Below, piece after piece: positions 10,939-23,170 of a stretch of DNA of 25,773 nucleotides. Made by a program: the position numbers and the translations under genes. This stretch comes from a virus: the IMG/VR virus record IMGVR_UViG_3300031722_000152, positions 1 to 25,773 of that record; one strand, 5' to 3'. Under the pieces are notes generated by a model that did not search any database, was not told the DNA's origin, and saw only the letters and a program-made list of their open reading frames with translations. Within the stretch, counting starts at the first letter, position 1; each line of letters opens with the position of its first letter.

Positions 10939-10985
10939 TTGCTTTTCCTAGGTAGTTCTGCTATTGTTAAAAGACTACCTAGGAA
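10939..10985 (+). promoter_or_regulatory. Sigma70-type promoter inside a 12-bp inverted repeat
   Basis: TTGCTT (10939-10944), a 17-base spacer and TATTGT (10962-10967) form a moderate host-type promoter. The first 12 bases of the spacer, TTCCTAGGTAGT, pair perfectly with ACTACCTAGGAA (10974-10985), which contains the AGGA ribosome binding motif of the gene at 10994. Transcripts from this promoter would start near the right arm and lack the left arm; read-through RNA would hide the binding site. It could alternatively act as a terminator for the virion operon, but no T-tract follows. Confidence 0.5.
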
Positions 10986-10993: not shown

Positions 10994-11152
10994 ATGAATC
11001 ACCAACACCATCCAGACTTAGAAGATCAACTAGCATCCATCCTCCAAGAAGAAATTTGGAAGGAAATAACCGCAGAAACTGGCGAAACCAAAGCTGACCT
11101 AGATCGGTCGATCATCGAACAACTCATAAAGTTACACGCCAAAAATGAATAG
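10994..11152 (+). CDS. Small acidic helical protein, unknown function
   Basis: The 52-residue product starts MNHQHHPDLEDQL and continues with a charged amphipathic helix region (ILQEEIWKEITAETGETKAD, LDRSIIEQLIKLHA). The ATG at 10994 is chosen over an in-frame TTG 30 bases upstream because AGGAA lies 8 bases before it and the TTG would fall inside the promoter. The stop overlaps the next start (ATGAATAG). It is the first gene of a run of seven small, overlapping genes that look like an early operon. No family recognised. Confidence 0.6.
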   Translation: MNHQHHPDLEDQLASILQEEIWKEITAETGETKADLDRSIIEQLIKLHAKNE

Positions 11153-11498: not shown

Positions 11499-11764
11499 TG
11501 GGACTCGGGCCGCCAGTTTGCCAGCACTGCCAGGTTATCGGAATTTGCTTAGACACGCCTGTGCCGATCATTAGAACCGAGCAGACTACTACGTTCAATA
11601 AAATGACTAGTTGGATTTGCCCTATTTGCGGCAATACAGATCTTACTGAGCACGCTGGTATGGGCGGTGTAGAGAGTTGGAAGAAATACAAAGACAACGA
11701 GAAATTCTTGTCGTTTATGTTAGACAAGCCATATGACTATGAACGAAACCGAAGAATTAGTTGA
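11498..11764 (+). CDS. Small zinc-ribbon-like protein
   Basis: The 88-residue product carries CQHC (C8, C11) and CPICGN (C41, C44), spaced as in a zinc ribbon, plus C17. It has a charged C-terminal part (ESWKKYKDNEKFLSFML). The ATG at 11498 overlaps the preceding stop and is preferred over an upstream in-frame start inside the previous gene. It overlaps the next gene by 32 bases. Zinc binding is inferred from the cysteines; nucleic-acid binding is possible but not shown. Confidence 0.6.
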   Translation: MGLGPPVCQHCQVIGICLDTPVPIIRTEQTTTFNKMTSWICPICGNTDLTEHAGMGGVESWKKYKDNEKFLSFMLDKPYDYERNRRIS

Positions 11765-12035
11765 ACCGGAACCAGAGTTCTGGACCATACTGAAGACGCC
11801 GTACGTCCGACGCGAGCAGTTCTCGCCAGTGACATTGTTGCTGGTGTGTGACGGGTATTCTTCGATCTACTCGTTTCAAGGAGTATACCCAATCTATTCA
11901 GCTAAGGTGCTCGTCAACGATAACGGGAGAATAATCACCACCGCCGAATATGTAGTGTCAGTGATGGGGACAGAAGGCAGGGTGATGTTTAATACACCAC
12001 CACGAGCCGGGACGTTCATCACAGTTTATTTTTAG
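11733..12035 (+). CDS. Unknown protein with EPEFWTILKTPY N-terminal motif
   Basis: The 100-residue product starts MTMNETEELVEPEPEFWTIL and continues KTPYVRRE, then a beta-rich domain ending TPPRAGTFITVYF. The start could also be the second Met at 11739. The motif EP(E/K)FWTILKTPY recurs near the start of the 57-residue protein at 12278. The C-terminal pattern (VSVMGTEGRVMFNTPPRAGT) resembles small beta-sandwich phage proteins, but no named family is recognised. Confidence 0.6.
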   Translation: MTMNETEELVEPEPEFWTILKTPYVRREQFSPVTLLLVCDGYSSIYSFQGVYPIYSAKVLVNDNGRIITTAEYVVSVMGTEGRVMFNTPPRAGTFITVYF

Positions 12036-12045
12036 GAGGAAAGAA

Positions 12046-12288
12046 ATGTCAGTACATCCACTAATCGGAGACCTGTCAGAGATGACAGATGCAATTCTCC
12101 ACGAGAAATTTAACGATCTGTCGAAGCGATTAAACGCAGCCTACCGAATGGGCTACGGCGATGCGGCACGTCAGTTGCAAATGTTTATGAACGATTATCA
12201 AGCTGAAATCAATCGTCGTAACGAAAAGATGATGGCTGCAATGGCTAGCAAGAATCCAGAATTTAAGAATATCATTGATGTTGGCTAA
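12046..12288 (+). CDS. Conserved small phage helical protein
   Basis: The 80-residue protein MSVHPLIGDLSEMTDAILHE and onward has the HPLIGDLS start seen in small conserved proteins of T4-like phages, then an amphipathic helical segment (LSKRLNAAYRMGYGDAARQL) and a charged helix. A strong AGGAGGAAAG ribosome binding site precedes the ATG. It overlaps the next gene by 11 bases. The function is not known; the predicted helical hairpin could mediate dimerisation. Confidence 0.65.
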   Translation: MSVHPLIGDLSEMTDAILHEKFNDLSKRLNAAYRMGYGDAARQLQMFMNDYQAEINRRNEKMMAAMASKNPEFKNIIDVG

Positions 12289-12451
12289 GAAACGTGCTAA
12301 ACTAAAAGAGCCTAAGTTCTGGACTATACTAAAGACTCCATACAGGCATCGTGATCCAATGGAAGAAATGATAGACCGGATGGCGAAAGAGATAGCCTAC
12401 GACGCCGATAAAGAAATATTGAAAGAATTGCTCAAGCTAGGGAAGAAATAA
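12278..12451 (+). CDS. Small 57-residue protein sharing the FWTILKTPY motif
   Basis: ATG at 12278 opens a 57-residue basic protein: MLAKKRAKLKEPKFWTILKT, PYRHRDP, then a helix (MEEMIDRMAKEIAYDADKEI, LKELLKLGKK). The EPKFWTILKTPY segment matches the protein at 11733 almost exactly in residues, while five of its codons differ only synonymously. The gene overlaps its upstream neighbour by 11 bases and its downstream neighbour by one (TAATG), which supports translation. Confidence 0.6.
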   Translation: MLAKKRAKLKEPKFWTILKTPYRHRDPMEEMIDRMAKEIAYDADKEILKELLKLGKK

Positions 12452-12963
12452 TGCGCACCGACAATTTCGGGCAGGTACATCGCACCGCAAACGAACTATG
12501 TGACCTACTCTACCTAGAGCCATCAACTGATCTTCACGCTGTAGAGATTGACGACCCAGAAGAGTTCAATCGAAGCATCAAAGAAATGTACTACGACTTT
12601 CGACTATTGAAAAAGTATCGAGAGCCGGCTACATCAGTAGAAGAGTTCGACACGATAAACCAGGCTCACTGGTATATGCCAGACGAGTACAAGAAATTCG
12701 ATGTTGCCAAATTTGTGTTAGATCAATGCCACACTGAAGAAGAATTGCAACGCACAGGAAAAGAATTGATGATGTACTTAGATCGAGATCTTATGCCGCT
12801 ATTGCAATTCTTGAAATATTTCGTTGACACAATGAGGAAGAATAACGTGGTGTGGGGAGTAGGACGTGGTAGCTCAGTAGCCAGCTATGTCTTGTTTCTT
12901 CTTGGAGTCCACAGAATCGATTCTCTATATTTTGACCTTCCGATAGAAGAATTCTTGCGGTAG
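12451..12963 (+). CDS. DNA polymerase III alpha-like fragment protein
   Basis: The 170-residue protein has a C-terminal segment (WGVGRGSSVASYVLFLLGVH, RIDSLYFDLPIEEFLR) that matches the palm region of bacterial replicative polymerase DnaE (GxGRGSxxxSxVxYxLGxxxIDxLxYxLxFERFL). The GRGSS motif is at about residues 138-142. In DnaE the catalytic aspartates follow directly after this point, but here the protein stops, so it cannot be a polymerase by itself. The N-terminal 100 residues are helical and acidic. Related proteins appear in other large phages; the role may be binding a replication partner. It is the last gene of the small-gene run. Confidence 0.65.
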   Translation: MRTDNFGQVHRTANELCDLLYLEPSTDLHAVEIDDPEEFNRSIKEMYYDFRLLKKYREPATSVEEFDTINQAHWYMPDEYKKFDVAKFVLDQCHTEEELQRTGKELMMYLDRDLMPLLQFLKYFVDTMRKNNVVWGVGRGSSVASYVLFLLGVHRIDSLYFDLPIEEFLR

Positions 12964-12973
12964 CGAAAATAGC

Positions 12974-12981
12974 GGTAAATA
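12974..12981 (+). promoter_or_regulatory. Late-type promoter before the gene at 13005
   Basis: GGTAAATACATATAAC contains a TAAATAC late box about 24 bases before the ATG at 13005; TTGGAG serves as ribosome binding site. Confidence 0.5.
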
Positions 12982-13004
12982 CATATAACATTTTGGAGTA
13001 AAAT

Positions 13005-13571
13005 ATGGCAAAAGTATATAAGTCAGCATTAGGCAAACAGATCGACGTTGATCACTTAGCGTTGACAAACGAGGACGTAATCGCAGTAGGCAACATGAGG
13101 GTGAACGCGAGAGGCGACCAGTTAGGCGCTGGTGGTAAGGTTGTAAAGACTCGCGATCAGATTATGAAGGAATATTACGCTCTAAATACGCCGGTAGCAA
13201 TGGATCCGCCACTGCCACAAGCAAAGGCAGCAGTGCCAGTAGCCAGGGTAAAGGCTGCTCCAGCGCAAGCTGATCCGATCGTTTTCAACCCAGCGTCCGG
13301 GTTAGATGAAGTAGAGGAAGAACCGGTAATCGACGAGCGGCGTGTATTGCACGTTGACATTGGCGGCATTCCGGCAGCTGAAGTCGCCAATGTAGTCGAA
13401 GCTGTTACTACTGCATTTAAGTCTGCAGAACTGACCCCAGATGCACCACCAGTCAATCACGTCAACCCAGAAATTCGCGGCTCGTTGGCGAGCTCAGTAG
13501 CCAAAACAGCAACCGTAACACAAGTAGAATTACTACCACCGAAGAAAGCAAACGGCGTTCAACGGTTTTAA
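13005..13571 (+). CDS. Conserved T4-like phage protein of unknown role
   Basis: The 188-residue protein has an N-terminal conserved region (residues 1-64: YKSALGKQIDVDHLALTNED, VIAVGNMRVNARGDQLGAGG, KVVKTRDQIMKEYY). A Pro/Ala-rich linker follows at about residues 65-100, then a small domain at 112-138 (RRVLHVDIGGIPAAEVANVV and following EAVTTAF) that also occurs in the next gene product. The TAAATAC promoter upstream suggests late expression and so a virion or assembly role, but this is inference. Confidence 0.65.
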   Translation: MAKVYKSALGKQIDVDHLALTNEDVIAVGNMRVNARGDQLGAGGKVVKTRDQIMKEYYALNTPVAMDPPLPQAKAAVPVARVKAAPAQADPIVFNPASGLDEVEEEPVIDERRVLHVDIGGIPAAEVANVVEAVTTAFKSAELTPDAPPVNHVNPEIRGSLASSVAKTATVTQVELLPPKKANGVQRF

Positions 13572-13589
13572 CCCAAGGAGAAACATATT

Positions 13590-13739
13590 ATGTCACAAAT
13601 CGAATGCAAAAAAGATACAACTCTACAAGACAGGAAAGTATTTTGTATCGATGTAGGGAATGTTACTCAAGAAGAAGCAGCAGACATTATCGCCGCAGTA
13701 ACAGTACAATTCGAGGAGAAGCAAATTGGCAGCATTTGA
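13590..13739 (+). CDS. 49-residue protein with the DVG domain
   Basis: ATG at 13590 with AAGGAG upstream opens a 49-residue protein (MSQIECKKDTTLQDRKVFCI, then DVGNVTQEEAADIIAAVTVQ). Residues 15-41 align without gaps to residues 112-138 of the protein at 13005: 10 of 27 identical, most others conservative. It overlaps the TTG start of the GroES-like gene by 14 bases, and its own codons supply that gene's GAGGAG ribosome binding site. Confidence 0.6.
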   Translation: MSQIECKKDTTLQDRKVFCIDVGNVTQEEAADIIAAVTVQFEEKQIGSI

Positions 13740-14079
13740 CGCACATGAAGTGAAAAGTCTCAAACCGTTGCACGACGGAGTTATTGTCTCGGATATGAAA
13801 TTCACAGAGCGATTCTCGCCGGCCGGGATTTTTATCCCGAGCGACGACAAACTCGTTCAAGGTGTTCGCCCACGCTGGGGCAAAGTCTACGCAGTAGGCC
13901 CAGAACAGAAAGACATCACCGTTGGACAATGGGTCTGCGTCACTCACGGTCGCTGGACACGTGGTATCAAGATCAAAGATGCGAATGGTGAGCACACGGT
14001 TCGCCGCGTAGATAACAACGACATTCTGCTCGTATCAGATGAGCCAGTAGTCGACGAGAATATGGGTCGCCCACTATAA
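13726..14079 (+). CDS. GroES/gp31-like co-chaperonin
   Basis: The 117-residue protein aligns with the Cpn10 fold: LKPLHDGVIVSDMKFTERFS matches the GroES start RPLHDRVIVKR, AGIFIP matches the GGI mobile-loop end, RPRWGKVYAVGPE matches the RGEVLAVGNG strand, DITVGQWVC matches the VKVGDIVIF strand, and VDNNDILLV matches the final strand. T4 gp31 replaces host GroES on GroEL so that the major capsid protein can fold; the same role is likely here. The start is TTG at 13726, 7 bases after GAGGAG; no ATG occurs before residue 24 within the fold. A strong terminator follows. Confidence 0.8.
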   Translation: MAAFDAHEVKSLKPLHDGVIVSDMKFTERFSPAGIFIPSDDKLVQGVRPRWGKVYAVGPEQKDITVGQWVCVTHGRWTRGIKIKDANGEHTVRRVDNNDILLVSDEPVVDENMGRPL

Positions 14080-14096
14080 CCTGATTACCAAAACCA

Positions 14097-14126
14097 TTGC
14101 TTTCACCCAAGATGCTCTGTTACGCT
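14097..14126 (+). promoter_or_regulatory. Possible weak sigma70-type promoter overlapping the terminator
   Basis: TTGCTT (14097-14102) with an 18-base spacer to TACGCT (14121-14126) is a weak promoter-like pair ahead of the CYTH gene. The -10 overlaps the left arm of the terminator, so RNA started here would escape termination. Confidence 0.3.
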
Positions 14127-14149
14127 ATGTAATAGAGCATTTTTATTTT
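14112..14149 (+). terminator. Rho-independent terminator after the co-chaperonin gene
   Basis: ATGCTCTGTTAC (14112-14123), loop GCTAT, and GTAATAGAGCAT (14129-14140) form a 12-pair stem with one G-T wobble, followed by TTTTATTTT. This is a textbook intrinsic terminator, placed 33 bases after the co-chaperonin stop and just before the GGGAGG ribosome binding site of the next gene. Confidence 0.85.
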
Positions 14150-14159
14150 AGGGAGGCAT

Positions 14160-14624
14160 ATGGCACTAGAAATCGAACGAAAATTCCTAGTCAACAGAAT
14201 CAACATCGAAACACTTCGGTCAGCCACTAAGTTAGTGATTCAGCAAGGCTATATCTTTGATTGGTTCAACACTGTTATCCGAACACGTAGGTCAAACGAC
14301 ATTGGATTTCTTACAATCAAACGGAACACCGGATTAGATACGCTAGGTGTGAACGAATATGAATGGTCGATTCCTGGTTGGCTAGCATCGGCGTTGATGT
14401 ACGTATCGTTCTTAGGCAAGATCGAAAAGACGAGGTACAACATCAACTACAAGGGACACACATTCGAGCTTGATATATTCGAAGGTAAGAACGACGGTCT
14501 CGTCGTTGTCGAAGTAGAATTAACTGATCCGGACGAGTATGTTGCATTACCAGACTGGGTCGGTGAAGAAGTAACTGGGCAGAAACAATATTACAACAAG
14601 AATTTAGCGAAAGGAAAGAAATGA
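14160..14624 (+). CDS. CYTH-domain triphosphate-binding protein (putative inorganic triphosphatase)
   Basis: The 154-residue protein has the CYTH signature ExExK at residues 4-8 (EIERK). It also has the alternating charged tunnel-lining residues expected for the triphosphate tunnel fold: R41 and R43, K54, E67 and E69, K90 and R92, D105 in ELDIFEG, and E118 and E120. The family hydrolyses inorganic triphosphate or other triphosphorylated substrates with a metal ion. The length fits a bacterial single-domain CYTH enzyme. GGGAGG precedes the ATG, and the stop overlaps the clamp-loader start by ATGA. Its substrate in phage infection is unknown. Confidence 0.85.
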   Translation: MALEIERKFLVNRINIETLRSATKLVIQQGYIFDWFNTVIRTRRSNDIGFLTIKRNTGLDTLGVNEYEWSIPGWLASALMYVSFLGKIEKTRYNINYKGHTFELDIFEGKNDGLVVVEVELTDPDEYVALPDWVGEEVTGQKQYYNKNLAKGKK

Positions 14625-15595
14625 GTATAAACACACTGTGGACGGAAGCATACCGGCCGAAAACCGTAGATGATTACGTCTTCAAAGATGACGCGCAGCG
14701 AGAGCAGGTTATGGCCTGGATCAAATCCAAAGACATCCCGCATTTGCTGTTTAGTGGCCCAGCCGGCATCGGTAAGACAACGATGGCAAAGCTGTTGATT
14801 AGCCAGCTAGACATTGACCCGTATGATGTGATGGAAATCAATGCATCACGGGAACGCGGTATCGATATTATCCGAAGCAACATTTCAAACTTCTGTAGCA
14901 CTATGCCGTTTGGGCATATGAAGATTGTGTTGCTGGACGAGGCTGACGCATTGACACCAGACGCCCAGAAAAGTTTGAAGGGAACAATGGAGGAATTCTC
15001 CGCGACGTGCCGATTCATCTTGACATCGAATCACCCAAACAAGATCATCCCTCCGTTGCATTCACGTTGTCAAGGCACTCACTTCGAGAAGATCGACCAC
15101 ACTGAATTCACAGCGCGTGTCGCAACTATTCTAGTCACTGAGAACGTCGTGTTTGACTTAGAGACGTTGGACATCTACGTCAAGGCAACTTACCCCGACC
15201 TGCGTAAGTGTATCAATTCGCTGCAACAAAATTCGACGTCCGGAACGTTACGGATGCCATCCTCGGCTGATCGGTCTGTGTCAGATTACAAGCTAGAGTT
15301 TGTGAAGCTGTTTAAGAATGGGCGTATCCGTGAAGCAAGAACGTTGTTCTGCACGTCAGCTACAAGCGAAGATCCAGATGATGTTATCCGCTGGTGTTAC
15401 GATAACCTAGACCTTTGGGCTACTTCAGAAGAAGGGCAAGACGAAGCAATTCTTATCATTCGCAATGCCCTAGTCAACACTAGCTTCTGTGCTGACCTTG
15501 AAGTTAATCTCGCAGCAATGATGACAGAGTTGATTCAAATTGACACAACGCTGACTGTTCGTCGCAGTATCGAAACAGTTGCCCACGCGAGCTAA
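14621..15595 (+). CDS. 44: Sliding-clamp loader ATPase (T4 gp44-like)
   Basis: The 324-residue AAA+ protein has a start typical of RFC small subunits and T4 gp44 (LWTEAYRPKTVDDYVF), Walker A GPAGIGKT (46-53), Walker B VLLDEAD (103-109), the sensor segment FILTSNHPNKI and the arginine-finger motif SRC (148-150). It should form the ATPase ring that opens and loads the sliding clamp (gp45-like) on primed DNA. In T4, gp44 works with gp62; no gp62 is recognisable downstream. It overlaps the CYTH gene by 4 bases. Length agrees with T4 gp44 (about 319 residues). Confidence 0.92.
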   Translation: MSINTLWTEAYRPKTVDDYVFKDDAQREQVMAWIKSKDIPHLLFSGPAGIGKTTMAKLLISQLDIDPYDVMEINASRERGIDIIRSNISNFCSTMPFGHMKIVLLDEADALTPDAQKSLKGTMEEFSATCRFILTSNHPNKIIPPLHSRCQGTHFEKIDHTEFTARVATILVTENVVFDLETLDIYVKATYPDLRKCINSLQQNSTSGTLRMPSSADRSVSDYKLEFVKLFKNGRIREARTLFCTSATSEDPDDVIRWCYDNLDLWATSEEGQDEAILIIRNALVNTSFCADLEVNLAAMMTELIQIDTTLTVRRSIETVAHAS

Positions 15596-15599
15596 TACA

Positions 15600-15809
15600 A
15601 TGACAAAAGACGAAATCGCAAAAGTAACAGCTATGGCCCGGCATCTGTGTGAAAAAGTGACAATAGAGCCTGGCGAACAGAAATATTCTACTCGTATCTG
15701 GAACAGCTACGTAAGAATTGTCAAACCAGTATTTCTCGTGGACGACGAGGCCACGTGCCAAAAGCAGTTTGACGCAGCAGTAAAAACCTATTTTAAGGAA
15801 ACGAAATGA
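15600..15809 (+). CDS. Unknown 69-residue protein downstream of clamp loader
   Basis: The product is MTKDEIAKVTAMARHLCEKV and onward: helical start, then a mixed segment with SYVRIVKPVFLVDDEATCQK. The ATG at 15600 lies 4 bases after the clamp-loader stop and is preferred to an in-frame TTG inside that gene. The stop overlaps the next ATG (ATGA). Its position is that of gp62 in T4, but it is far shorter than gp62 (187 residues) and no similarity is visible. Confidence 0.55.
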   Translation: MTKDEIAKVTAMARHLCEKVTIEPGEQKYSTRIWNSYVRIVKPVFLVDDEATCQKQFDAAVKTYFKETK

Positions 15810-16198
15810 GCAAGCAAAAAGACATTTATGTGATCGCGCAATATTACGCAAAACCCAAAAATCCGAAGATGACTCGCGTGCCGGGTTATATGACCGATGA
15901 AGCAAACATCGCTTGGGATGAGCGTGTTGACGTCACCTACGGATTACGGTCAAAGGATTTAGTCGCATCGAAGGTTGTGATAAATATCAGTAAGCAAGCA
16001 GTCGAAAAAGATAGCTTCAAATCTGGCAGATCATTCGACGAATTGTTCTCATATTTTTATTCTGCAAATCCGAAGCAGATCGCTAACGCGATTCGACAGT
16101 TTGGTATTACTATAGGGCAGACAACTACAGAAGAACTGCCTGCCACTTCGAATATATCCCCTTCTTCGGAGAATGCGTTCCCCGAGCAAGAGCACTAA
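15806..16198 (+). CDS. Unknown protein with C-terminus overlapping an endonuclease gene
   Basis: The 130-residue product begins MSKQKDIYVIAQYYAKPKNP and has a mixed alpha/beta body up to about residue 106 (IANAIRQFGITIGQ). The last 24 residues (TEELPATSNISPSSENAFPE and following QEH) are Ser/Pro/Glu-rich, look unstructured and are encoded antisense to the 3' end of the convergent endonuclease gene. It is coupled to the upstream gene by ATGA. Function unknown; its operon with the clamp loader suggests replication. Confidence 0.55.
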   Translation: MSKQKDIYVIAQYYAKPKNPKMTRVPGYMTDEANIAWDERVDVTYGLRSKDLVASKVVINISKQAVEKDSFKSGRSFDELFSYFYSANPKQIANAIRQFGITIGQTTTEELPATSNISPSSENAFPEQEH

Positions 16199-16712
16199 CT
16201 TTATTTCGATTTAACCCGTGCTGATTGCAAAATAATCCCAATGCTCCATGAATAATATAGTCAACCCCATCTGGTGATGTTATCTTCCAGTGTTGAGCAT
16301 TAGGATTATTTTCTCCTGAGACGTTGGCATGATTCAACGACATGTTCTGTTTAGCCTTGTCGGATTTAGGTTTGTTAAGGTTAGCTACGCTAATCTTTTT
16401 ATTATGACTAGCAGTTCGAATTGCACCTGTAGTACCGTCACCACCATCAGTTAGATTATTAAGAATACCGGTACCTAAATCTTTACGGCCGTACCAAGAT
16501 ATCATTCGCCGTTCTAGGGCGTTTGCTCCTAAGTTGGTTAAATTCGTTTCTAAGAATATAATACGTGATTTGTCAGTTGGTTTATTTCGATGCCGTCCAT
16601 AAGCTCGATACCCAGTCCCTTTACCGATGTAATAAGGGGTTCCGGCTTTTGCTGTTTTGGAATCTTTGCTACGCAGGTATGCGTAGACGTAATAAATAGT
16701 ATTGCTAGACAT
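16125..16712 (-). CDS. GIY-YIG homing endonuclease (second minus-strand cassette)
   Basis: This 195-residue protein has an N-terminal GIY-YIG domain: YYVYAYLRSKD and TPYYIGKGTGYRAYGRH, then the acidic catalytic helix ALERRMISWYGR and NNLTDGGDGTTG. A linker with KISVANLNKPKSDKAKQNMS resembles NUMOD3. The C-terminal part (WKITSPDGVDYIIHG and GLNRNKVSALARGTHSPKKG) is a DNA-binding helix-turn-helix of the kind found in such enzymes. ATG at 16712 is preceded by GGGAGG 5 bases upstream; a longer in-frame start at 16754 lies within the hairpin leader. It sits opposite to its neighbours with a private late-type promoter. Confidence 0.85.
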   Translation of the reverse strand: MSSNTIYYVYAYLRSKDSKTAKAGTPYYIGKGTGYRAYGRHRNKPTDKSRIIFLETNLTNLGANALERRMISWYGRKDLGTGILNNLTDGGDGTTGAIRTASHNKKISVANLNKPKSDKAKQNMSLNHANVSGENNPNAQHWKITSPDGVDYIIHGALGLFCNQHGLNRNKVSALARGTHSPKKGIYSKWQAVLL

Positions 16713-16736
16713 ATAATCCTCCCAAGGATGTTTAGA

Positions 16737-16766
16737 GCAGTTGGATATCCCCATATCGCGAACTGC
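16737..16766 (-). promoter_or_regulatory. Conserved 5' leader hairpin of the 16125-16712 endonuclease
   Basis: The minus strand folds as GCAGTT / CGC / GATAT / loop GGGG / ATATC / C / AACTGC. Length, internal loop and outer stem are the same as at 877-906, but the inner stem has other bases on both arms and one outer pair changes from T-A to C-G. Conserved TCTAA follows the hairpin in both, then the ribosome binding site. Confidence 0.6.
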
Positions 16767-16771
16767 ACATA

Positions 16772-16779
16772 TATTTATG
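16772..16779 (-). promoter_or_regulatory. Late-type promoter for the 16125-16712 endonuclease
   Basis: The minus strand reads GCATAAATATATG, the same box and spacing to the leader hairpin as at 910-917. Confidence 0.6.
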
Positions 16780-16791
16780 CTAGGATACGAA

Positions 16792-17043
16792 ATGTCAGCA
16801 CTTTACTCTAGAATGTTCAAGGAAAAGAAGAAGCGTCCAGTAGACCCGCTAGCGCCACCACGTCCGAACTTGATGTCACAAGCGAAGGAAATCAAGAACG
16901 TTCATCTATCGCTTGAAATGCTGCAATTTCAACTGCAACGGCAACAGGAAGAAATAACCCACCTGAAATCCAAGCTGAATCAGTCGAATTATAGGGTAGA
17001 AATGCTCACAACCTACCTGAAAAACACTAAAACCACCAAGTAA
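16792..17043 (+). CDS. Small coiled-coil protein
   Basis: This is an 83-residue protein. The basic N-terminus (MSALYSRMFKEKKKRP) is followed by a Pro-rich link, then a predicted coiled coil over residues 35-78 (LSLEMLQFQLQRQQEEITHL, KSKLNQSNYRVEMLTTYLKN). The ATG at 16792 has TAGGA 6 bases upstream; an earlier in-frame start would lie inside the endonuclease leader. It directly abuts the endonuclease cassette. No family recognised. Confidence 0.55.
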   Translation: MSALYSRMFKEKKKRPVDPLAPPRPNLMSQAKEIKNVHLSLEMLQFQLQRQQEEITHLKSKLNQSNYRVEMLTTYLKNTKTTK

Positions 17044-17047
17044 TTTC

Positions 17048-17100
17048 TTGACCTACCTCCAGCTTTCGTGTATAATGCATACAATGAAACGTTGGAGGTA
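17048..17100 (+). promoter_or_regulatory. Strong sigma70-type promoter nested in a hairpin covering the ribosome binding site
   Basis: TTGACC (17048-17053), a 17-base spacer and a perfect TATAAT (17071-17076) form a strong host-type early promoter. The first ten spacer bases, TACCTCCAGC (17054-17063), pair with GTTGGAGGTA (17091-17100; one G-T pair), which holds the whole GGAGG ribosome binding site of the gene at 17104. RNA from this promoter starts after the left arm and leaves the site free; read-through RNA would mask it. Confidence 0.7.
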
Positions 17101-17103
17101 CTT

Positions 17104-17826
17104 ATGAAATTTCCACAAACTTCCCCCGCTGGTCGTGTTAGGCCAAATCAACCCACCTTTCCGTTGCTTGATGTCATCGCGGCGGCGACTGTAGCGTTTC
17201 GTAAAAATCACAACACTATCTTGCGCATTGATTGCCCAGCATACGAAGGTTCGACCGACGGAGAATTTCCAGCGACGCCAGAATGTATTTCAAACAAGAC
17301 GATCACGCTGGCGGTGCTGAAGGAAGGCTTGATTACAGACGAAGCAAGGGCCGAAGCTGCTGGAATGGTACAAGCTCTGCAAACCAACATGACATTCTCT
17401 ATTCTCACTGGCAAGGTCGTGTCGACTTTTATGCAAGATATTCACAAGTCACTCGAGAAAGATACTGTGCTATTGAGCGAGGTCGGGAGAACGCTCTACG
17501 TTCCGAGCTTATACGCTGGCATTAAATCCCGTGAGAATTTGCTCGAAGCAGAGATTGGGTTGCGCAACTCTAGCAAGGCGCTCGGAGAAGTCGGTGCAAA
17601 GGTAACCATCAACTTTACACTGATCAGCGACAGGTACGTGGAGACATTTAACTGTTTTGCTGCATTCGGGAAAGACGATCAAGGTAACCTAGTTAGCTTT
17701 TTGACCGGGCACAAAGGACTATGCGCTACAGGGAAGATTACAGGTAAGGTGAAATTTGCCAATCCTGACAAATTCCACGGAAATGCTATTGTGACAAATT
17801 TAAATTTTGTGAAGGCGGTTTCATAG
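17104..17826 (+). CDS. Unknown phage protein, 240 residues, early-type promoter
   Basis: The product begins MKFPQTSPAGRVRPNQPTFP. It is globular alpha/beta, without membrane spans or recognised catalytic motif; segments include LLDVIAAATVAFRKNHNTIL, YVPSLYAGIKSRENLLEAEI and VKFANPDKFHGNAIVTNLNF. The ATG follows GGAGG by 5 bases. The strong promoter in front indicates expression early in infection. The last 41 bases overlap the convergent membrane-protein gene. No family recognised. Confidence 0.65.
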   Translation: MKFPQTSPAGRVRPNQPTFPLLDVIAAATVAFRKNHNTILRIDCPAYEGSTDGEFPATPECISNKTITLAVLKEGLITDEARAEAAGMVQALQTNMTFSILTGKVVSTFMQDIHKSLEKDTVLLSEVGRTLYVPSLYAGIKSRENLLEAEIGLRNSSKALGEVGAKVTINFTLISDRYVETFNCFAAFGKDDQGNLVSFLTGHKGLCATGKITGKVKFANPDKFHGNAIVTNLNFVKAVS

Positions 17827-18160
17827 ACTCTTCGTGGGCGCGAAGTTCGACCTCCAGACTGGTCATACGATTGCCGAGCTCGCCAACAGAAATTCCAAGT
17901 TGAATCTCATGGTAGGTAAAAATCATCAGCCCAGCGCAAGCTAGCCCCGCAAAGAAAACTAGCAATGCAACCCAACGTTTTATCACGACGTTACTCACAT
18001 CGTCACGGCGGCGAACTAGAGCGCGTACAGTATTCTGTCTAGTGTTTCCATGAACGATCCCATGAATACGAGAAGTCGTTTCTTCAATTTTAGTGATCGA
18101 CTCTTTCGCCTGGTCCATCATCTCAGCGTTTGCGCTATTAGTTAGATCATGGTCGTTCAT
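17786..18160 (-). CDS. Single-span membrane protein with coiled-coil ends
   Basis: The 124-residue protein has an acidic helical N-terminal part, a basic stretch (VRALVRRRDDVSNVVIKR), one transmembrane segment at about residues 68-87 (VALLVFFAGLACAGLMIFTY) and a short C-terminal coiled coil (LGNRMTSLEVELRAHEESMK). AAGGAG precedes the ATG, and the ATGA overlap with the gene before it shows coupling. It is the last of four minus-strand membrane genes. Function unknown; a lysis or membrane-exclusion role is possible. Confidence 0.6.
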   Translation of the reverse strand: MNDHDLTNSANAEMMDQAKESITKIEETTSRIHGIVHGNTRQNTVRALVRRRDDVSNVVIKRWVALLVFFAGLACAGLMIFTYHEIQLGISVGELGNRMTSLEVELRAHEESMKPPSQNLNLSQ

Positions 18161-18630
18161 GCTTGATCTCCTTCTTGATGTTTGCTGGTTGGCTTGTGGA
18201 CTATTGCTTCCAGGTATGACACGTTCGCGGCTAATTTAACATTCTCTATTGCGAAACGTTGCATCTCTGTTCGAGCCAACTCAAGACTCGCTCCTAATTT
18301 CTCCACTAGAACTTTGAGCTCAGTCACTTGCACTGATAAGAACTCGACCTCAGCAGTCAGCTTCCCGACTTTGCCGACGGCCTCATTTCGCTCTTGTTCG
18401 ATGACTGTCATTCTCACAATAATTCTGTCCCTATCCTCTTTGGTTTCGTCTCGCTCTTTCTTGTAATTCTCCAGCATTGACTGATACGATTTATCTTCGT
18501 GAATCACCTTCTGGTCCGACGAGATTCGTCGACGAATGATCGATAGTCCATACGCAATTATTACTCCGGCTGACGGCAATCCTACCGCCCAAGAAATCAA
18601 GTCGTTTGTAATTTGTGTATCACCGACCAT
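18157..18630 (-). CDS. Membrane-anchored coiled-coil protein
   Basis: Starting from ATG 18630 (AGGGA 7 bases upstream), the 157-residue product has one N-terminal transmembrane segment (about residues 11-33, WAVGLPSAGVIIAYGLSII), a basic RRR stop-transfer, and then a long coiled coil (about 45-140). An in-frame longer start would run back into the previous gene. The layout (short membrane anchor then long coil) resembles holin-associated or spanin-like proteins, but no family is recognised. Confidence 0.6.
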   Translation of the reverse strand: MVGDTQITNDLISWAVGLPSAGVIIAYGLSIIRRRISSDQKVIHEDKSYQSMLENYKKERDETKEDRDRIIVRMTVIEQERNEAVGKVGKLTAEVEFLSVQVTELKVLVEKLGASLELARTEMQRFAIENVKLAANVSYLEAIVHKPTSKHQEGDQA

Positions 18631-19069
18631 AACAATCCCTAATAAAAATCCACCACGCAATTACAGCACACGCCCACTGGGCTGCTATAATAGTAAGAAC
18701 CCCTTGCTCTATTCTTGATGCTATTAATAAATCTACGTTGAGCGACCATAACATCGCACCAGTAGCAGATACTAACATATTTATGGTTTGTCCGTTCGGA
18801 TAATTTTTGTCAATTTTCAATGTAACGATTATGAATTCAGCGATCCCGTAAATTGTTGTGCAGGTTAACCAGAGCCATAATGGGATAAAATCGAACATTA
18901 CCTTTCGTCCGTGTTCTATGTCATTAATTGTCATACCATAATTCAGCATGACTCCTATCCAAATAATCGTAGTGAAGGCAGTCAATACAAGTGCTAGTCG
19001 TAACGCTACTATATCTGCGTCAGCAATAACATGCCACAAATTCGACGACATTAGGTTAATTTTATTCAT
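18620..19069 (-). CDS. Four-span membrane protein, paralogue of the gene before it
   Basis: The 149-residue product has four hydrophobic segments (about residues 23-43, 60-84, 96-116 and 123-143) and ends IAWWIFIRDCYGR. The third segment (ATGAMLWSLNVDLLIASRI) aligns with FGALLWTISLDLIVLVRL of the protein at 19062, and both end with AWWIFIRD, so the two are paralogues. AAGGAT precedes the ATG. It overlaps both neighbours. Function unknown. Confidence 0.65.
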   Translation of the reverse strand: MNKINLMSSNLWHVIADADIVALRLALVLTAFTTIIWIGVMLNYGMTINDIEHGRKVMFDFIPLWLWLTCTTIYGIAEFIIVTLKIDKNYPNGQTINMLVSATGAMLWSLNVDLLIASRIEQGVLTIIAAQWACAVIAWWIFIRDCYGR

Positions 19070-19502
19070 GTAGATCCTTACTGAAAATGTCGCGTATAAA
19101 AATCCACCAGGCGATAGATGCTGCTAGAAAATGTGCGCTGCCCATAGGCAAAGTATGTTCCGATAAGCGAACCAGAACAATCAAATCTAAACTGATTGTC
19201 CATAACAGGGCTCCGAACATTGACCCTATCGTTATCCATCCTCTGTGTTGTTGCTTCAACAACAGTGCAATGGCACCTACTCCGCCATAAGCAAAAAACA
19301 AGAACGCAAAAAATTGGAGGTGAGAATCCACAAATTCTAAATCGTAATCATTGGCTGCTTCAGGAAATACGAGTAAGACAACTACTACCCAAATCGACCA
19401 CATCAAGGCGCCAGTGTATAGCGCAAGTCTCATTGACGTTAAGTCAGACTTGGCTATTATGAATTTAAAATTTGACCACACGAGCTTGATTACGTCTTTC
19501 AT
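19062..19502 (-). CDS. Four-span membrane protein, first gene of the minus-strand membrane cassette
   Basis: The 146-residue product has four predicted transmembrane segments (about residues 25-46, 63-83, 89-111 and 118-136) and ends AWWIFIRDIFSKDLHE. A late-type box (GCTAAATA, 19523-19530) lies upstream, so the four-gene set may be expressed late. No family recognised. Because the endolysin region has no visible holin, this cassette is a candidate place for one. Confidence 0.65.
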   Translation of the reverse strand: MKDVIKLVWSNFKFIIAKSDLTSMRLALYTGALMWSIWVVVVLLVFPEAANDYDLEFVDSHLQFFAFLFFAYGGVGAIALLLKQQHRGWITIGSMFGALLWTISLDLIVLVRLSEHTLPMGSAHFLAASIAWWIFIRDIFSKDLHE

Positions 19503-19522
19503 GATGCACCTATTCTTTCTTA

Positions 19523-19530
19523 TATTTAGC
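19523..19530 (-). promoter_or_regulatory. Late-type promoter of the membrane cassette
   Basis: The minus strand reads GCTAAATATAAG about 20 bases before the ATG at 19502, matching the TAAATA core of the other late boxes in the window. Confidence 0.45.
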
Positions 19531-19544
19531 AGTATATAGAAAGT

Positions 19545-19561
19545 AATAATGCTGCATTATT
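19545..19561. promoter_or_regulatory. 17-base perfect dyad, possible operator
   Basis: AATAATGC-T-GCATTATT is perfectly symmetric with a single central base, too tight to form a hairpin loop, which suits a protein-binding site. It lies 14 bases upstream of the late-type promoter of the membrane cassette. Confidence 0.4.
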
Positions 19562-19573
19562 GTAGATAAGTGG

Positions 19574-19656
19574 ATCCGAGAGTTGAAGGAAAATTTTGCT
19601 ATCGTGGTCAGTTAACATGACATTTAATGTGTGAGCAATTTTTTCAACTCTCGGAT
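19574..19656 (-). other. Long imperfect stem-loop between phoH and the membrane cassette
   Basis: ATCCGAGAGTTGAA (19574-19587) and TTCAACTCTCGGAT (19643-19656) pair perfectly over 14 bases. After a two-base bulge, four A-T pairs follow, then a second two-base bulge and a five-pair TTGCT/AGCAA stem, about 23 pairs in all, closed by a 33-base loop that itself holds GTCA/TGAC. There is no T-tract. It might be an RNA-processing site, a small RNA, a terminator or a DNA cruciform site. The 178-base gap 19503-19680 holds no gene. Confidence 0.6.
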
Positions 19657-19680
19657 GTTCGAGGATGTTACAGTTATTTG

Positions 19681-20487
19681 TTACTTTGATTCTGGTTTAT
19701 ACAGATTTAAGATCTCCGTAACGATTGGGTGACGCTGTACGTCTTGTACTTCAAACCGTGTTGCTCCGATTGCGTCGCCCTTGTATCCTTCAAATTTGGC
19801 GAAGAAATCAATCAGCCCGTTTGTTTTGGCAAACTGCCTGTCTACCTGATCTAAGTCTCCTGTTACAACCAACCGTGATCCGTCGCTGATACGTGTCAAC
19901 AACATCAGCAGCTGGTTTACGCTACTGTTCTGCATTTCATCAGCGATGATGAAAGCTTTCTTCAAATTTCGACCGCGCATGTAAGCAAGAGGGGAAATTT
20001 CAATAACTTCAGTCTCTAGCATATACGCTACTTCTTTAGGTGAGTAATACTCCTTTATGACATCAAAGATCGGCCTTGTCCATGGCTCCATTTTTTCATT
20101 CAACGTGCCTGGTAAGAATCCGTGTTTCTCATCGTCTACTCCGACTGCCGGACGAGTGATGATGATCTTTTCTACTGTGCCTGCCTTAAATGCTTTGATT
20201 GCAGCTAGGACGCCGAGCATTGTCTTTCCTGTTCCTGCTGGGCCTGTTGCAAACACGATTGTCTTATCTGGGTCGAGTAGGTTGTTGACGTACTCTTCCT
20301 GCTTCAAACTACGCGGTACTAGTGATACTGTTTTTCGTTGCTGAACATATGTATTAAAACTTAAAACGTTTGAGTCTGGCTGATATTTCCTAGCTCCTCG
20401 TTCTCCTCCTCTAGTGTTTGATGTGCGAGTAGGTGCCGTCTCTTCATAATCCTCTTGGACTCTTCTAACATTTCTACGTTTAGGCAA
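19681..20487 (-). CDS. phoH: PhoH-like ATPase
   Basis: The 268-residue protein has a charged N-terminal tail (MPKRRNVRRVQEDYEETAPT), then the PhoH core: Walker A GPAGTGKT (82-89), ITRPAVGVDDEKHGFLPGTL, PLAYMRGRNLKKAFIIADEM with Walker B FIIADE (179-184), and VVTGDLDQVD. PhoH proteins are RNA/DNA-dependent P-loop ATPases related to superfamily I helicases and are common in phages. The start is TTG at 20485-20487, set by AAGGAG 7 bases upstream; the longer frame back to 20682 contains the promoter region and has no PhoH similarity. A late-type box lies upstream. Confidence 0.88.
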   Translation of the reverse strand: MPKRRNVRRVQEDYEETAPTRTSNTRGGERGARKYQPDSNVLSFNTYVQQRKTVSLVPRSLKQEEYVNNLLDPDKTIVFATGPAGTGKTMLGVLAAIKAFKAGTVEKIIITRPAVGVDDEKHGFLPGTLNEKMEPWTRPIFDVIKEYYSPKEVAYMLETEVIEISPLAYMRGRNLKKAFIIADEMQNSSVNQLLMLLTRISDGSRLVVTGDLDQVDRQFAKTNGLIDFFAKFEGYKGDAIGATRFEVQDVQRHPIVTEILNLYKPESK

Positions 20488-20534
20488 GTTATTACTCCTT
20501 AAAAAGTGTGGCAGGTATGTGCTGCTCACAAAAG

Positions 20535-20542
20535 TATTTAAC
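20535..20542 (-). promoter_or_regulatory. Late-type promoter for phoH
   Basis: The minus strand reads GTTAAATACTTTTG, about 48 bases before the TTG start. It shares TAAATACTTT with the boxes at 1041 and 10005. Confidence 0.5.
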
Positions 20543-20617
20543 ACGGATTTTTTCAGACAAAGCATATATATATGAAAGTGGTTGGTCGCCTTAAATAACA
20601 CCACGATTTTCAGCCCA

Positions 20618-20651
20618 GGTAAATACAATGTGAAGCAGAAAAGTATAAATA
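20618..20651 (+). promoter_or_regulatory. Two tandem late-type promoter boxes
   Basis: GGTAAATACAATG (box 20618-20625) and GTATAAATACTG (box 20644-20651, a perfect TATAAATA) lie ahead of the ATG at 20674. The region 20488-20673 carries divergent late promoters and no gene. Confidence 0.65.
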
Positions 20652-20673
20652 CTGTATTACCACGGAAACCATA

Positions 20674-21258
20674 ATGGCACAATCAATAAAAGACGCACTG
20701 AAAAACATCCAAGACATTTATATGAGTGACAGCGCACTATCGACGCTGTTAGACTTTGAGCGTGTCATCGACGAGCTCGGCGTCTACGTATTTCAAAATT
20801 GGAAGAACGGCGAGCTAGTAGCAGGTCCAGCATATGAGAAATATTTTGTGACCTGCACGTTTATGTGGCCCAGGAAAAAAATGCCGGATCCTAGAGGAGG
20901 CGAGCAGTTGCTCAACTATAACTGCGAAGTGCTATTCAAACGTGATCACTTAGAGTTTCCAATTAAACCGAAATCGCCAAGTGATTACCGACCAAACACC
21001 AAAATGGGCAAGTTGAAGAAGACTCCGATATGGCTTGTCACTATCACTATGCCGAAGAAGCTTATGACAGAAATACACCAAGGGTCTGTGGAAGTTGAAA
21101 GTGAAAATCTAGACCTAGAAGACTTGTCGCAAGCATACGAGACTGGTATGGACGAGGAACAAGGACAAGCTGGAGGAGCAGACGATCAAGGTATGAACCC
21201 AGCTGACGAGCAAATGGGAGACATGGGCGGAATGGGCGAGATGGGAGGTATGCAATGA
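20674..21258 (+). CDS. Conserved T4-like phage protein with Met/Gly-rich tail
   Basis: The 194-residue protein starts MAQSIKDALKNIQDIYMSDS. The globular part to about residue 135 includes FERVIDELGVYVFQNWKNGE, EKYFVTCTFMWPRKKMPDPR and PIWLVTITMPKKLM. The C-terminal 55 residues are acidic and end in Met/Gly repeats (MGDMGGMGEMGGMQ). It is under two late-type boxes, suggesting a late role. The ATGA overlap couples it to the next gene. Similar sequences occur in T4-like marine phages, but I do not recognise a function. Confidence 0.65.
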   Translation: MAQSIKDALKNIQDIYMSDSALSTLLDFERVIDELGVYVFQNWKNGELVAGPAYEKYFVTCTFMWPRKKMPDPRGGEQLLNYNCEVLFKRDHLEFPIKPKSPSDYRPNTKMGKLKKTPIWLVTITMPKKLMTEIHQGSVEVESENLDLEDLSQAYETGMDEEQGQAGGADDQGMNPADEQMGDMGGMGEMGGMQ

Positions 21259-21809
21259 TTACCGAAGGATCTGAAATCAACGATCTAGCTCGTTTAGTGA
21301 AACCAGAGCTAACCATCGACGAATTCCGCAGTAAAATGGGCGAAGACAAAGACATTATAGTTCTCGGATTTACTGTTATGAACAAAGAACCAGCAGCCGA
21401 CTTAGTAGACTTCATCGAAAAAAGTTACGACTGGGTGTTAGACGCTGACATTAGCAGTGGTGAAACCTCAGACGGGAATTTCGTTGTGTTCGTTGAAATT
21501 CAACGCAAATCTTCTGCCGCAAAAAACATCTTTGCGATGCTCACCGATGTGTTAAATCTTACATCGCAAGAAATGGACGAATGGACATTCACGTACTACA
21601 AGGGGTCAGACAAATTACCGGTCACTGAAGAGAATCTGACCGACAAAATTATTTCAACACCGGCAGAATACGAACTCAAGACCAACGATAGTCTAGACGA
21701 GAGCATTCGGCTAAACAGTCTTCGTGCTTTAGCAGGCGTTACAGTGCAGCCGAAGAAGATTACAGATTCACTTCTGTACAACATGCAAATTATGGCGGGG
21801 ATAAAATGA
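21255..21809 (+). CDS. Unknown conserved phage protein, 184 residues
   Basis: The product begins MITEGSEINDLARLVKPELT and contains DIIVLGFTVMNKEPAADLVD, WVLDADISSGETSDGNFVVF and EMDEWTFTYYKGSDKLPVTE. It is acidic, alpha/beta and probably soluble. It overlaps both neighbours by 4 bases (ATGA), placing it between the Met-rich protein and the endolysin in one late unit. No catalytic motif is visible. Confidence 0.6.
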   Translation: MITEGSEINDLARLVKPELTIDEFRSKMGEDKDIIVLGFTVMNKEPAADLVDFIEKSYDWVLDADISSGETSDGNFVVFVEIQRKSSAAKNIFAMLTDVLNLTSQEMDEWTFTYYKGSDKLPVTEENLTDKIISTPAEYELKTNDSLDESIRLNSLRALAGVTVQPKKITDSLLYNMQIMAGIK

Positions 21810-22429
21810 AACTTACAGTCGAACAACTCAAAGCAATCTTGACCGAAAATCCACACGCGGGCGATTGGGTAGATGCACTCAACAACAACTTAGAAGCAGC
21901 CAATATCAACACGCCTCATCGCATTGCTGCTTTCTTAGCGCAGACCGCGCACGAATCAACAGACTATACTCACCTCAGTGAAAACCTTAACTACGGAGCG
22001 AAGGGATTACTAGGAACGTGGCCGAAACGATTTGACGCCGTAACGGCAGCGGCTTATGCTCGACAGCCAGAAAAGATTGCAAACAAGGTTTATGCATTAC
22101 GCTTAGGCAACGGTGATGAAAAAAGTGGAGACGGATGGAAGTATCGCGGTCGTGGTATCATTCAGGTAACTGGCAAGAACAACTACGGATCTTGCAGCGT
22201 TGCTATCTACAAAGACACCCGGTTACTTGAGAACCCAGACATTCTTTCTACTGACAAAGACGCTGCGATTAAATCGGCTTGCTGGTACTGGACGGTGAAT
22301 GATCTCAACACGCTAGCAGATAATCAAAAGATCACCGAGATGACGAAGAAGATCAATGGCGGATATCTAGGTCTAGAAGAGCGTATCGCCAAGTTCAACC
22401 TAGCTAACAAAGTATTGGGAGGTGAATGA
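21806..22429 (+). CDS. GH19-type endolysin (lysozyme/chitinase-like)
   Basis: The 207-residue protein matches the glycoside hydrolase 19 lysin fold: FLAQTAHESTDYTHLSENLN contains the two conserved glutamates (E50, E59), followed by YGAKGLLGTWPKRF, KYRGRGIIQVTGKNNY (113-127), SACWYWTVNDLN and TKKINGGYLGLEER. It should cut the glycan strands of peptidoglycan at lysis. There is no signal peptide, so export would depend on a holin. The stop overlaps the i-spanin start. Confidence 0.88.
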   Translation: MKLTVEQLKAILTENPHAGDWVDALNNNLEAANINTPHRIAAFLAQTAHESTDYTHLSENLNYGAKGLLGTWPKRFDAVTAAAYARQPEKIANKVYALRLGNGDEKSGDGWKYRGRGIIQVTGKNNYGSCSVAIYKDTRLLENPDILSTDKDAAIKSACWYWTVNDLNTLADNQKITEMTKKINGGYLGLEERIAKFNLANKVLGGE

Positions 22430-22806
22430 TGTTTGGCCTAGTCGGTATTCAAGCCACCTTACTAAAATATGGTCTCATTCTCCTAGCAGTGTTAGGAGTA
22501 ATCTACGGGATCTATCATGCTGGTGCTCAATCAGTGCAAACTAAATGGGACGCTGCTAACATCAAAACCGAGCAGGAAATCAAGGCCCTTAAAGATAAGG
22601 CAGACACTGCTACTGGTAAGATCGAGATTCAGTATGTTGACCGAGACAAGATCATCGTGCAAAAGGGCGACACGATTGTCAAGTATGTCAACAAATATAT
22701 CACTACAGAGTCAGATGCAAAATGTATCATTCCGAAGAATTTCATTCTACTGCATGATGCCGCAGCATTGAACGTGGTACCACCGGGTGGAGAAGAAACC
22801 AAATGA
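22426..22806 (+). CDS. i-spanin-like (Rz-like) inner membrane protein
   Basis: The 126-residue protein has an N-terminal transmembrane segment at about residues 11-32 (TLLKYGLILLAVLGVIYGIY), followed by a charged coiled-coil periplasmic part (KTEQEIKALKDKADTATGKI) and a small C-terminal region with Cys and Pro. Topology and its place between endolysin and a lipoprotein gene match the i-spanin Rz, which bridges inner and outer membranes in the last step of lysis. The start is ATGATG, overlapping the endolysin stop. Sequence similarity is not diagnostic by itself. Confidence 0.75.
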   Translation: MMFGLVGIQATLLKYGLILLAVLGVIYGIYHAGAQSVQTKWDAANIKTEQEIKALKDKADTATGKIEIQYVDRDKIIVQKGDTIVKYVNKYITTESDAKCIIPKNFILLHDAAALNVVPPGGEETK

Positions 22807-23099
22807 AACTAGCCATCGCAATATTCTTAGGGGTGATGTTATCCGCTTGCGGAAGCAACCCAGTCAAAACGTCATTCCCGGACCTGCCAACTAAGCTAAT
22901 GGTCGAGCCACAAACTCTCAAGACCATCCAAACAAATAGTATTGAGACAATCAAGCTTGACGATTCTACAGCTAGCGAATTGCGTCTTTCGGCATTAGAG
23001 AAGGTAGTAGCTGAAAATTACAAACTCGCCAATCAATGGCGCGAGCAAATACTAGAGCTTCAGCTCTGGCTGAAAACTCAAAAATCCATCAATCCATAA
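22803..23099 (+). CDS. o-spanin-like lipoprotein (Rz1-like)
   Basis: The 98-residue protein starts MKLAIAIFLGVMLSACGSNP, a short lipoprotein signal with lipobox LSAC (Cys16) and Gly after it, compatible with outer-membrane sorting. The mature part includes a helical segment (LRLSALEKVVAENYKLANQW and following REQILELQLW). Overlapping the i-spanin gene by ATGA, it fits as the o-spanin partner, here end-to-end rather than nested. Its mature length (83 residues) is longer than classic Rz1. Confidence 0.75.
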   Translation: MKLAIAIFLGVMLSACGSNPVKTSFPDLPTKLMVEPQTLKTIQTNSIETIKLDDSTASELRLSALEKVVAENYKLANQWREQILELQLWLKTQKSINP

Positions 23100-23156
23100 C
23101 CAAAAGCATTGACTTTTGGCTAAAACTCGTGTAATATAGTGAAATATTGTATTACA
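23100..23156 (+). promoter_or_regulatory. Sigma70-type promoter overlapping two inverted repeats
   Basis: TTGACT (23109-23114), a 17-base spacer and TAATAT (23132-23137) form a strong host-type promoter. CCAAAAG/CTTTTGG (23100-23119) makes a small stem over the -35, and TGTAATA/TATTACA (23130-23156) flanks the -10 and start. These could be an upstream RNA end structure and an operator. AGAGGAAA follows as ribosome binding site. Confidence 0.6.
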
Positions 23157-23170
23157 ACTAGAGGAAACAA

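Follow-up and report, generated by a model that had tools for sequence, protein, structure and literature searches.

In a 25.8-kb virus record, a fragment of a giant phage referred to here as the window and analysed over its full length of 25,773 nucleotides, a sigma70-type promoter lies within a hairpin whose 3' arm contains the Shine-Dalgarno (SD) sequence of the gene that follows. This arrangement is likely to be a translational insulator that is built into the promoter and is directed against read-through RNA. Comparison of sequences gives good support for pairing of the promoter spacer with the ribosome binding site in the window, in T4 and in other phages.

The proposed mechanism is as follows. 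RNA from the co-directional upstream gene would have both arms of the hairpin, fold and bury GGAGG. RNA started at the promoter itself would begin past the 5' arm and, as it would lack that arm, its GGAGG would be far cheaper to open. Since the read-through RNA would be masked and the promoter RNA openable, the 240-aa gene would be expressed upon firing of its own promoter, with little product coming from read-through RNA. Here, we infer that read-through RNA reaches the site at 17048, that the fold blocks binding of the 30S subunit in cells and that the promoter is an early one.

The promoter, the hairpin and the buried Shine-Dalgarno sequence

Table 1. Features of the site at 17048-17104 and of the sibling site at 10945
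Feature	Position	Strand	Basis or remark
Upstream ORF, 83 aa from ATG, co-directional	16792..17043	+	ORF list; stop 4 nt before the -35
-35 hexamer TTGACC	17048..17053	+	read directly; promoter search
Promoter spacer, 17 nt; 5' end is TACCTCCAGC	17054-17070	+	read directly
-10 hexamer TATAAT	17071..17076	+	promoter search; transcription start placed near 17083 by inference
Hairpin 5' arm: spacer 17054-17070 plus first 3 nt of the -10	17054..17073	+	fold, shuffle test
Hairpin 3' arm, bulges at 17083 and 17090	17079..17100	+	predicted fold
GTTGGAGGTA, partner of TACCTCCAGC	17091-17100	+	read directly
Shine-Dalgarno GGAGG, within the 3' arm	17094..17098	+	predicted to be buried in read-through RNA
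Start codon ATG of the 240-aa gene	17104	+	read directly
240-aa gene, family of unknown function	17104..17826	+	orthologs L529:9792, L484:4865
Sibling promoter TTGCTT-17-TATTGT, 8/12, TGn before the -10	10939..10967	+	sequence reading; absent from promoter list
Sibling hairpin, perfect 12-bp arms, 17-nt loop; AGGA 10981-10984 buried	10945..10985	+	inverted-repeat search, fold
Sibling arms TTCCTAGGTAGT / ACTACCTAGGAA	10945-10956 / 10974-10985	+	perfect 12 bp
Small gene (52 aa) that follows the sibling hairpin	10994..11152	+	ORF list

The promoter at 17048 is the top match, at 11/12, in a search over positions 10000-25773 (Table 1). TACCTCCAGC and GTTGGAGGTA form 10 bp, including one G.U, and the predicted fold of 17054-17100 extends this to an imperfect stem of 20 pairs with two 1-nt bulges, a 5-nt loop and an energy of -22.1 kcal/mol, with the -10 box at the stem top and in the loop. 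Among all 47-nt windows of the plus strand, this hairpin ranks 1/25,727 for stability. The first-pass annotation had described a promoter with a nested hairpin masking GGAGG at this site, which direct reading and the fold confirm, the stem being larger than had been noted.

The hairpin at 10945 has the same geometry in an unrelated sequence. It is preceded by a 296-aa ORF that ends at 10929, and the 52-aa gene behind it has zero homologs in the 'phages' database and among 80 kin loci. The sibling hairpin is real and its promoter is weak. The first-pass annotation took the same geometry in two unrelated sequences as a sign of a shared temporal switch. The shared geometry is upheld by the two sites and by enrichment in relatives over shuffled or mismatched controls, as explained below, and the switch in time is a putative one. 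It also placed the start of the 5' arm at the first base of the spacer. This is correct for the sites at 17048 and 10945 and does not extend to a rule, since elsewhere the distance from the first base of the spacer to the arm varies from 0 to about 10 nt.

Folding of the two alternative RNAs at each site gave large differences in the computed cost of opening the SD sequence. At 17104, opening costs 15.7-17.2 kcal/mol in read-through RNA versus 5.2-6.5 in promoter RNA (15.7 versus 5.6 with RNA to +40), and at 10994 the costs are 10.3-10.8 versus 0.4-2.0 kcal/mol (10.8 versus 1.7 to +40). The earlier claim that read-through RNA is masked and promoter RNA is not is thus borne out at both sites as a fold prediction. 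The promoter RNA at 17104 is itself predicted to pair its SD with the start of the coding region, with a probability of 0.95-1.0 and a whole fold of -7.4 kcal/mol, and the 'on' state may not be fully open. As the SD is paired in this RNA as well, what the folds predict is a gap of about 9-12 kcal/mol in opening cost and not a contrast of masked versus free.

A stable hairpin between co-directional genes could also be an intrinsic terminator or attenuator that halts read-through RNA, but the 17054-17100 stem has no T-run 3' of it and the hairpin is absent from the terminator scan list, making this reading very improbable. The same scan lists no terminator between the 16792..17043 ORF and the 17048 promoter.

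It might also be that the promoter is real and the hairpin fortuitous, with no selection at 17104. The helix there was equalled by 12/20,000 shuffled spacers and its strength was matched by 30 of the 51,512 17-mers of the window, native placements included. The sibling helix was reached by 0/20,000 shuffled spacers and by 19 of the 51,512 17-mers, native included. The window has few gene starts (25) and, as described in the next section, the hairpin is weak or absent in two orthologs, both of which suit the chance explanation, but the shuffles, the occurrence of two sites in 25.8 kb and the enrichment of the design in kin count against it and we regard it as unlikely.

Two further inverted repeats were seen in the window. 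One is a perfect 14-bp repeat (19574-19587 / 19643-19656, 55 nt apart, -31.5 kcal/mol over 83 nt), which lies in the gap separating the PhoH gene from the next ORF on the minus strand and covers no ribosome binding site. The other (16229-16246 / 16295-16312, 18 nt, 94%) lies in the minus-strand ORF 16125-16754, which has a weak homing-endonuclease match.

Genome setting and orthologs of the 240-aa gene

The clamp loader of the window shares 53.5% identity with its counterpart in Pseudomonas jumbo phages of the PA5oct/Paride group, and the window and Paride have in common the gene order clamp loader, small genes, PhoH (other strand) and virion protein. Megablast of positions 10000-20000 found no close relatives in 'phages', and the exact arms of the 17054-17100 hairpin occur in zero viral contigs. 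Homologs of the 16792..17043 ORF (query 16798-17040) are present in four of the kin loci (L472, L529, L484 and L497).

The motif ATAAATA, which we take to be a T4-like late motif in the window, precedes three genes, namely a baseplate-like one at 1073, one for a virion protein at 20674 and an ORF at 10039, for which no family was found. A motif search found no ATAAATA in 17048-17104. As the gene at 17104 differs in this from the other three, its promoter is probably early, an assignment that is drawn from the sigma70-type sequence.

The 240-aa protein has zero Pfam or PHROG matches. Nothing was found with it by tblastn in 'phages' or by two single-protein scans of viral_contigs, and tblastn of one of its relatives against 'phages' likewise gave zero matches. 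Relatives surfaced only via the clamp-loader alignment (best 80 of 593 kin loci), which yielded two orthologs, 32% and 26% identical in alignment, on contigs that carry a jumbo-phage clamp loader (L484 and L529). A single-sequence fold of the 240-aa protein was unusable (pLDDT 33.8) and a fold from three sequences reached a pLDDT of 57.8. Foldseek of the latter against BFVD returned 23 matches at E <= 0.001, all but one to uncharacterized or unnamed viral proteins. The exception, at rank 19/23, is named as an ssDNA-binding protein, and these matches are too weak to assign a function.

Both orthologs have a sigma70-type promoter immediately 5' of the gene, in support of the one assigned at 17048. 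By the rule used in this analysis, a standard SD is absent from either start. The pairing is not conserved in these two orthologs. L529 has a weaker hairpin, in which 13 pairs are interrupted by a 2-nt bulge, with an energy of -10.5 kcal/mol when folded from the -35 on and a gain of 3-5 kcal/mol, and the ORF 5' of the ortholog points the opposite way. In L484, there is no promoter hairpin, though a short co-directional ORF overlaps the -35. The hairpin is therefore not an old fixture of the 240-aa gene. In addition, L529 has at 9766-9795 a nine-codon ORF that begins near the presumed transcription start, ends in a stop overlapping the start codon of the ortholog (221 aa) and is possibly a leader peptide.

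The design in other phages and the molecule under selection

The first-pass annotation suggested a search for spacer pairing with ribosome binding sites against controls. In relatives and T4, this search revealed an enrichment. Promoters that score at least 10/12 and precede an SD-led ORF were collected from Paride, XacN1 and RaK2, from the initial 400 kb of both Phosso and Atu_ph07, and from T4, where TTTACA was also accepted as a -35. In these five jumbo relatives and T4, 12 spacer-SD helices of <= -15 kcal/mol were found versus about 1.6 expected from swapped spacers (Poisson p ~1e-7). The observed numbers, with the swapped-spacer expectation in brackets, are 1/21 in Paride (0.2), 1/77 in XacN1 (0.1), 1/64 in RaK2 (0.1), 4/32 in Phosso (1.0), 2/44 in Atu_ph07 (0.0) and 3/33 in T4 (0.2). 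The mean helix energy clearly beats the swapped control in Phosso (z -4.8) and T4 (z -3.4) and does so less in Atu_ph07 (z -2.0). It does not clearly differ from the control in Paride (z -1.0), XacN1 (z 0.5) and RaK2 (z -0.8), where the design is found at 1-2 sites only. Vibrio phage 2.275, also a relative, was searched with one DNA pattern, outside the promoter survey.

In Phosso (PV764938.1), the nine best-paired of the 32 promoter sites all have TCCT in the spacer, which is complementary to AGGA, and swapped Phosso spacers also pair well, at a mean of -8.0 kcal/mol. In Paride, a T4-type late motif, ATAAATACTT, lies inside an 8-bp hairpin that masks a ribosome binding site at 6308 (W01, +), apparently a late counterpart of the device within this group of phages.

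Further support came from larger sets. The design was present at 3/76 sites, versus 0.1 expected, in a further set of kin loci (the top 80 among 593 by clamp-loader alignment), and at 3/47 and 2/14 sites in G002 and G005, two IMG/VR contigs that were selected because they had a hit. A broader survey, which took in every SD-led ORF start with or without a promoter and used a simple gene caller, counted SD-covering helices of <= -14 kcal/mol and found 2/25 in the window (0.8 expected from shuffles), 8/209 in Paride (1.6) and 13/168 in T4 (2.8). The statistics of the window are thin, with 25 gene starts and a single SD-led ORF behind a promoter that scores at least 10/12.

IMG/VR was scanned with a pattern of TTGAC, CCTCC within the spacer, TATAAT and GGAGG, and with a control in which CCTCC was scrambled to CTCCC. 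The pattern matched 33 stretches (19 distinct) and the control 9 (8 distinct). Pairing beyond the searched bases, scored by interior shuffles, reached z <= -2 in 13/19 distinct viral elements versus 2/8 of the control; in bacterial genomes, it did so in 19/80 examined elements (88 found). Nine proteins behind the viral elements were scanned, and among them are a RecJ-like exonuclease, an RNA ligase, two endonucleases (one HNH, one homing) and a DNA primase, whose start is unsure and lies at least 29 nt past GGAGG.

A second arm pattern, CTCCT/AGGAG, matched at least 120 stretches, of which 80 were examined (45 distinct). Only 7/45 of the distinct elements had z <= -2, with a mean z of -0.41, and there was no difference in co-directional context (6/7 versus 30/33), so that this is a weak replication of the design. 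The set is dominated by one family (many of L352-L431) with a CTCCTNCGGGAGG hairpin inside the -35/-10 spacer, unpaired with the SD; among the matches listed, these promoters are mostly 8-20 nt after a co-directional ORF.

The stem in read-through RNA could alternatively be a processing site, at which a host or phage RNase cuts and either inactivates or matures the RNA. Double-strand RNases accept substrates in a size range that includes 20 bp, which the stem at 17054-17100 suits. In addition, RNase E takes part in processing the transcripts of some homing endonuclease genes of T4, according to PMC2988022. This explanation is improbable, as stems range from about 8 to 22 bp and it is coverage of the SD that stays constant, partly since the surveys required it.

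The centre of symmetry of the hairpin falls on the -10 region, as would be expected of a DNA palindrome that serves as a repressor operator or as a promoter-tuning cruciform, with the overlap of the ribosome binding site being incidental. This has little to recommend it once the mismatches are considered. Beyond the Watson-Crick seeds (>=7) in 78/386 elements, G.U and A.C oppositions occur at 36:6, versus 108:142 with shuffled spacers (Fisher p 2e-7, and 5e-5 without the uncultured-phage small-protein family), and DNA symmetry would give no G.U preference. The excess of G.U over A.C means that sense RNA, and not DNA, has been selected to pair, and as no RNA but read-through RNA carries the 5' arm, it is read-through RNA that is selected to fold. 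The arms also vary between sites of one genome and among regB and denV orthologs, so there is no common operator. Some promoter palindromes in T4 and XacN1 do stop before the SD, consistent with a function at the DNA level, but in the six genomes, SD-covering helices are more enriched (22 versus 5.05 expected) than those that miss it (15 versus 7.8). The SD-missing palindromes are mostly from T4 and XacN1, one of the 15 being a repeated XacN1 copy; those of T4 lie at 57990, 20612, 73939 and 65799 (minus strand), at early-type promoters.

Covariation was assessed in the uncultured-phage small-protein family, taking the best 80 of 546 relatives, 73 of them with a promoter, and testing 56 distinct pairs. 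Native spacer and leader form a helix of 8.05 bp on average versus 6.77 +/- 0.17 for swapped partners. After dereplication (n=21), the values are 7.52 versus 6.14, with 0/5,000 permutations as high. A helix of at least 10 bp is present in just 11/56.

Insulation from read-through RNA also fits the genes upstream of these promoters. A co-directional ORF lies 5' of 21/22 masked promoters versus 154/240 weakly paired ones (p 0.0017; G002 and G005 included). With a stricter context rule, the figures are 20/22 versus 165/268 (p 0.005); for intergenic promoters, 14/14 versus 103/151 (p 0.011), and without T4, 12/12 versus 89/134 (p 0.018). They are 9/9 versus 81/119 (p 0.057) for intergenic promoters without G002 and G005, and 9/9 versus 94/137 (p 0.058) for promoters of at least 11/12. 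The effect is modest.

T4 early promoters and related systems

T4 itself has early-promoter versions of the device, computed at regB, denV and nrdC.8. In 8/8 regB and 8/8 denV sequences, T4 included, the SD is paired at 0.90-1.00 in read-through RNA and at 0.04-0.37 in promoter RNA (15 of 16 computed); the relatives were hand-picked for divergence from 40 listed records per gene, out of 681 and 739, and are not a random sample. The arms of both genes differ in sequence among genera while the SD pairing stays. In two of the denV sequences, the -10 region takes the place of the spacer as the 5' arm, and at T4 modB it includes the -10 region. Across the T4 GTTTAC promoters with an SD-led ORF, the gain in opening cost is at least 8 kcal/mol in 8/31 versus 1.4 expected (RNA to +20). 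With RNA to +40, seven gain more than 8 kcal/mol (nrdC.8, modB, 30.8, regB, denV, alt.-3 and a start within ndd.4), three gain 4-6 and 21 gain less than 3.

It is conceivable, and here we are tentative, that many phages couple the translation of some early host-takeover genes to initiation at early promoters. If so, a promoter would be the switch-off signal for its own gene when transcription comes from elsewhere, and the T4 set would include regB, denV, nrdC.8 and modB. This would help to explain how early proteins cease though RNA of their regions may persist, and early shut-off would be partly a matter of RNA folding, beyond promoter shut-off and RegB cleavage. T4, with its identified early promoters and easy genetics, gains a testable layer of early-gene control. 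A 2022 study of the T4 transcriptome and proteome states that translational regulatory factors including the Shine-Dalgarno sequence still need study (PMC9697503). The design also suggests a compact synthetic part, in which a promoter insulates its own gene from read-through.

The masking topology is already known. Promoter-in-hairpin masking for T4-type late genes and occlusion of the ribosome binding site for an insertion sequence appear in the sources available to us. Here, the same topology is found with promoters of the host type, and its carriers include jumbo phages, T4 relatives and uncultured phages. A search of the literature, mostly of open papers, did not turn up an early-promoter version, though Liebig and Rueger 1989, reportedly a work on T4 early promoters, might mention it. 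The accessible text of PMC2988021, on T4 early promoters, mentions no such structure. The sigma70-type version, with its proposed mechanism, thus appears to be a new form of the masking known from T4 gene e.

The transposase genes of IS10 and IS50 are protected from read-through transcription. In such systems, RNA that enters from outside runs into structures which either terminate it or conceal the ribosome binding site, and occlusion of the ribosome binding site is described for IS200 (PMC3196728). Unlike in these three systems, the 240-aa protein has no transposase family match, no insertion sequence was recognised and the gene has a strong promoter of its own.

SD-sequestering hairpins are described for T4 e, soc, 49 and I-TevI, and also for segB and Aeh1 mobE, in PMC3014915 and PMC2988022. 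In e, I-TevI and similar genes, a late promoter lies inside the hairpin; the 5' arm is made only from upstream promoters and RNA from the inner promoter lacks it (PMC3014915, PMC2988022). For gene e, the structured RNA is quoted as causing a 100-fold loss of lysozyme synthesis (PMC3014915, PMC2988022), and the T4 genes so regulated are all given as late (PMC2988022). The first-pass annotation held that the T4 version works the other way, and this is wrong by these accounts: in e, soc and I-TevI, the promoter is likewise inside, upstream RNA is masked and the promoter class alone differs.

The site in the window and T4 regB and denV both pair the promoter region with the SD in read-through RNA only, by prediction. 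They differ in that the T4 cases have a GTTTAC -35 box and identified early promoters, whereas the promoter of the window phage is predicted from sequence. The T4 late promoter motif is TATAAATA, and ATAAATA does not occur at 17048-17104. As in T4 e, soc and I-TevI, the SD of the window site is predicted to be in a helix in RNA initiated upstream, and the inner promoter would start its RNA past the 5' arm. Unlike the late promoter of those genes, the promoter of the window site is of the sigma70 type, TTGACC-17-TATAAT.
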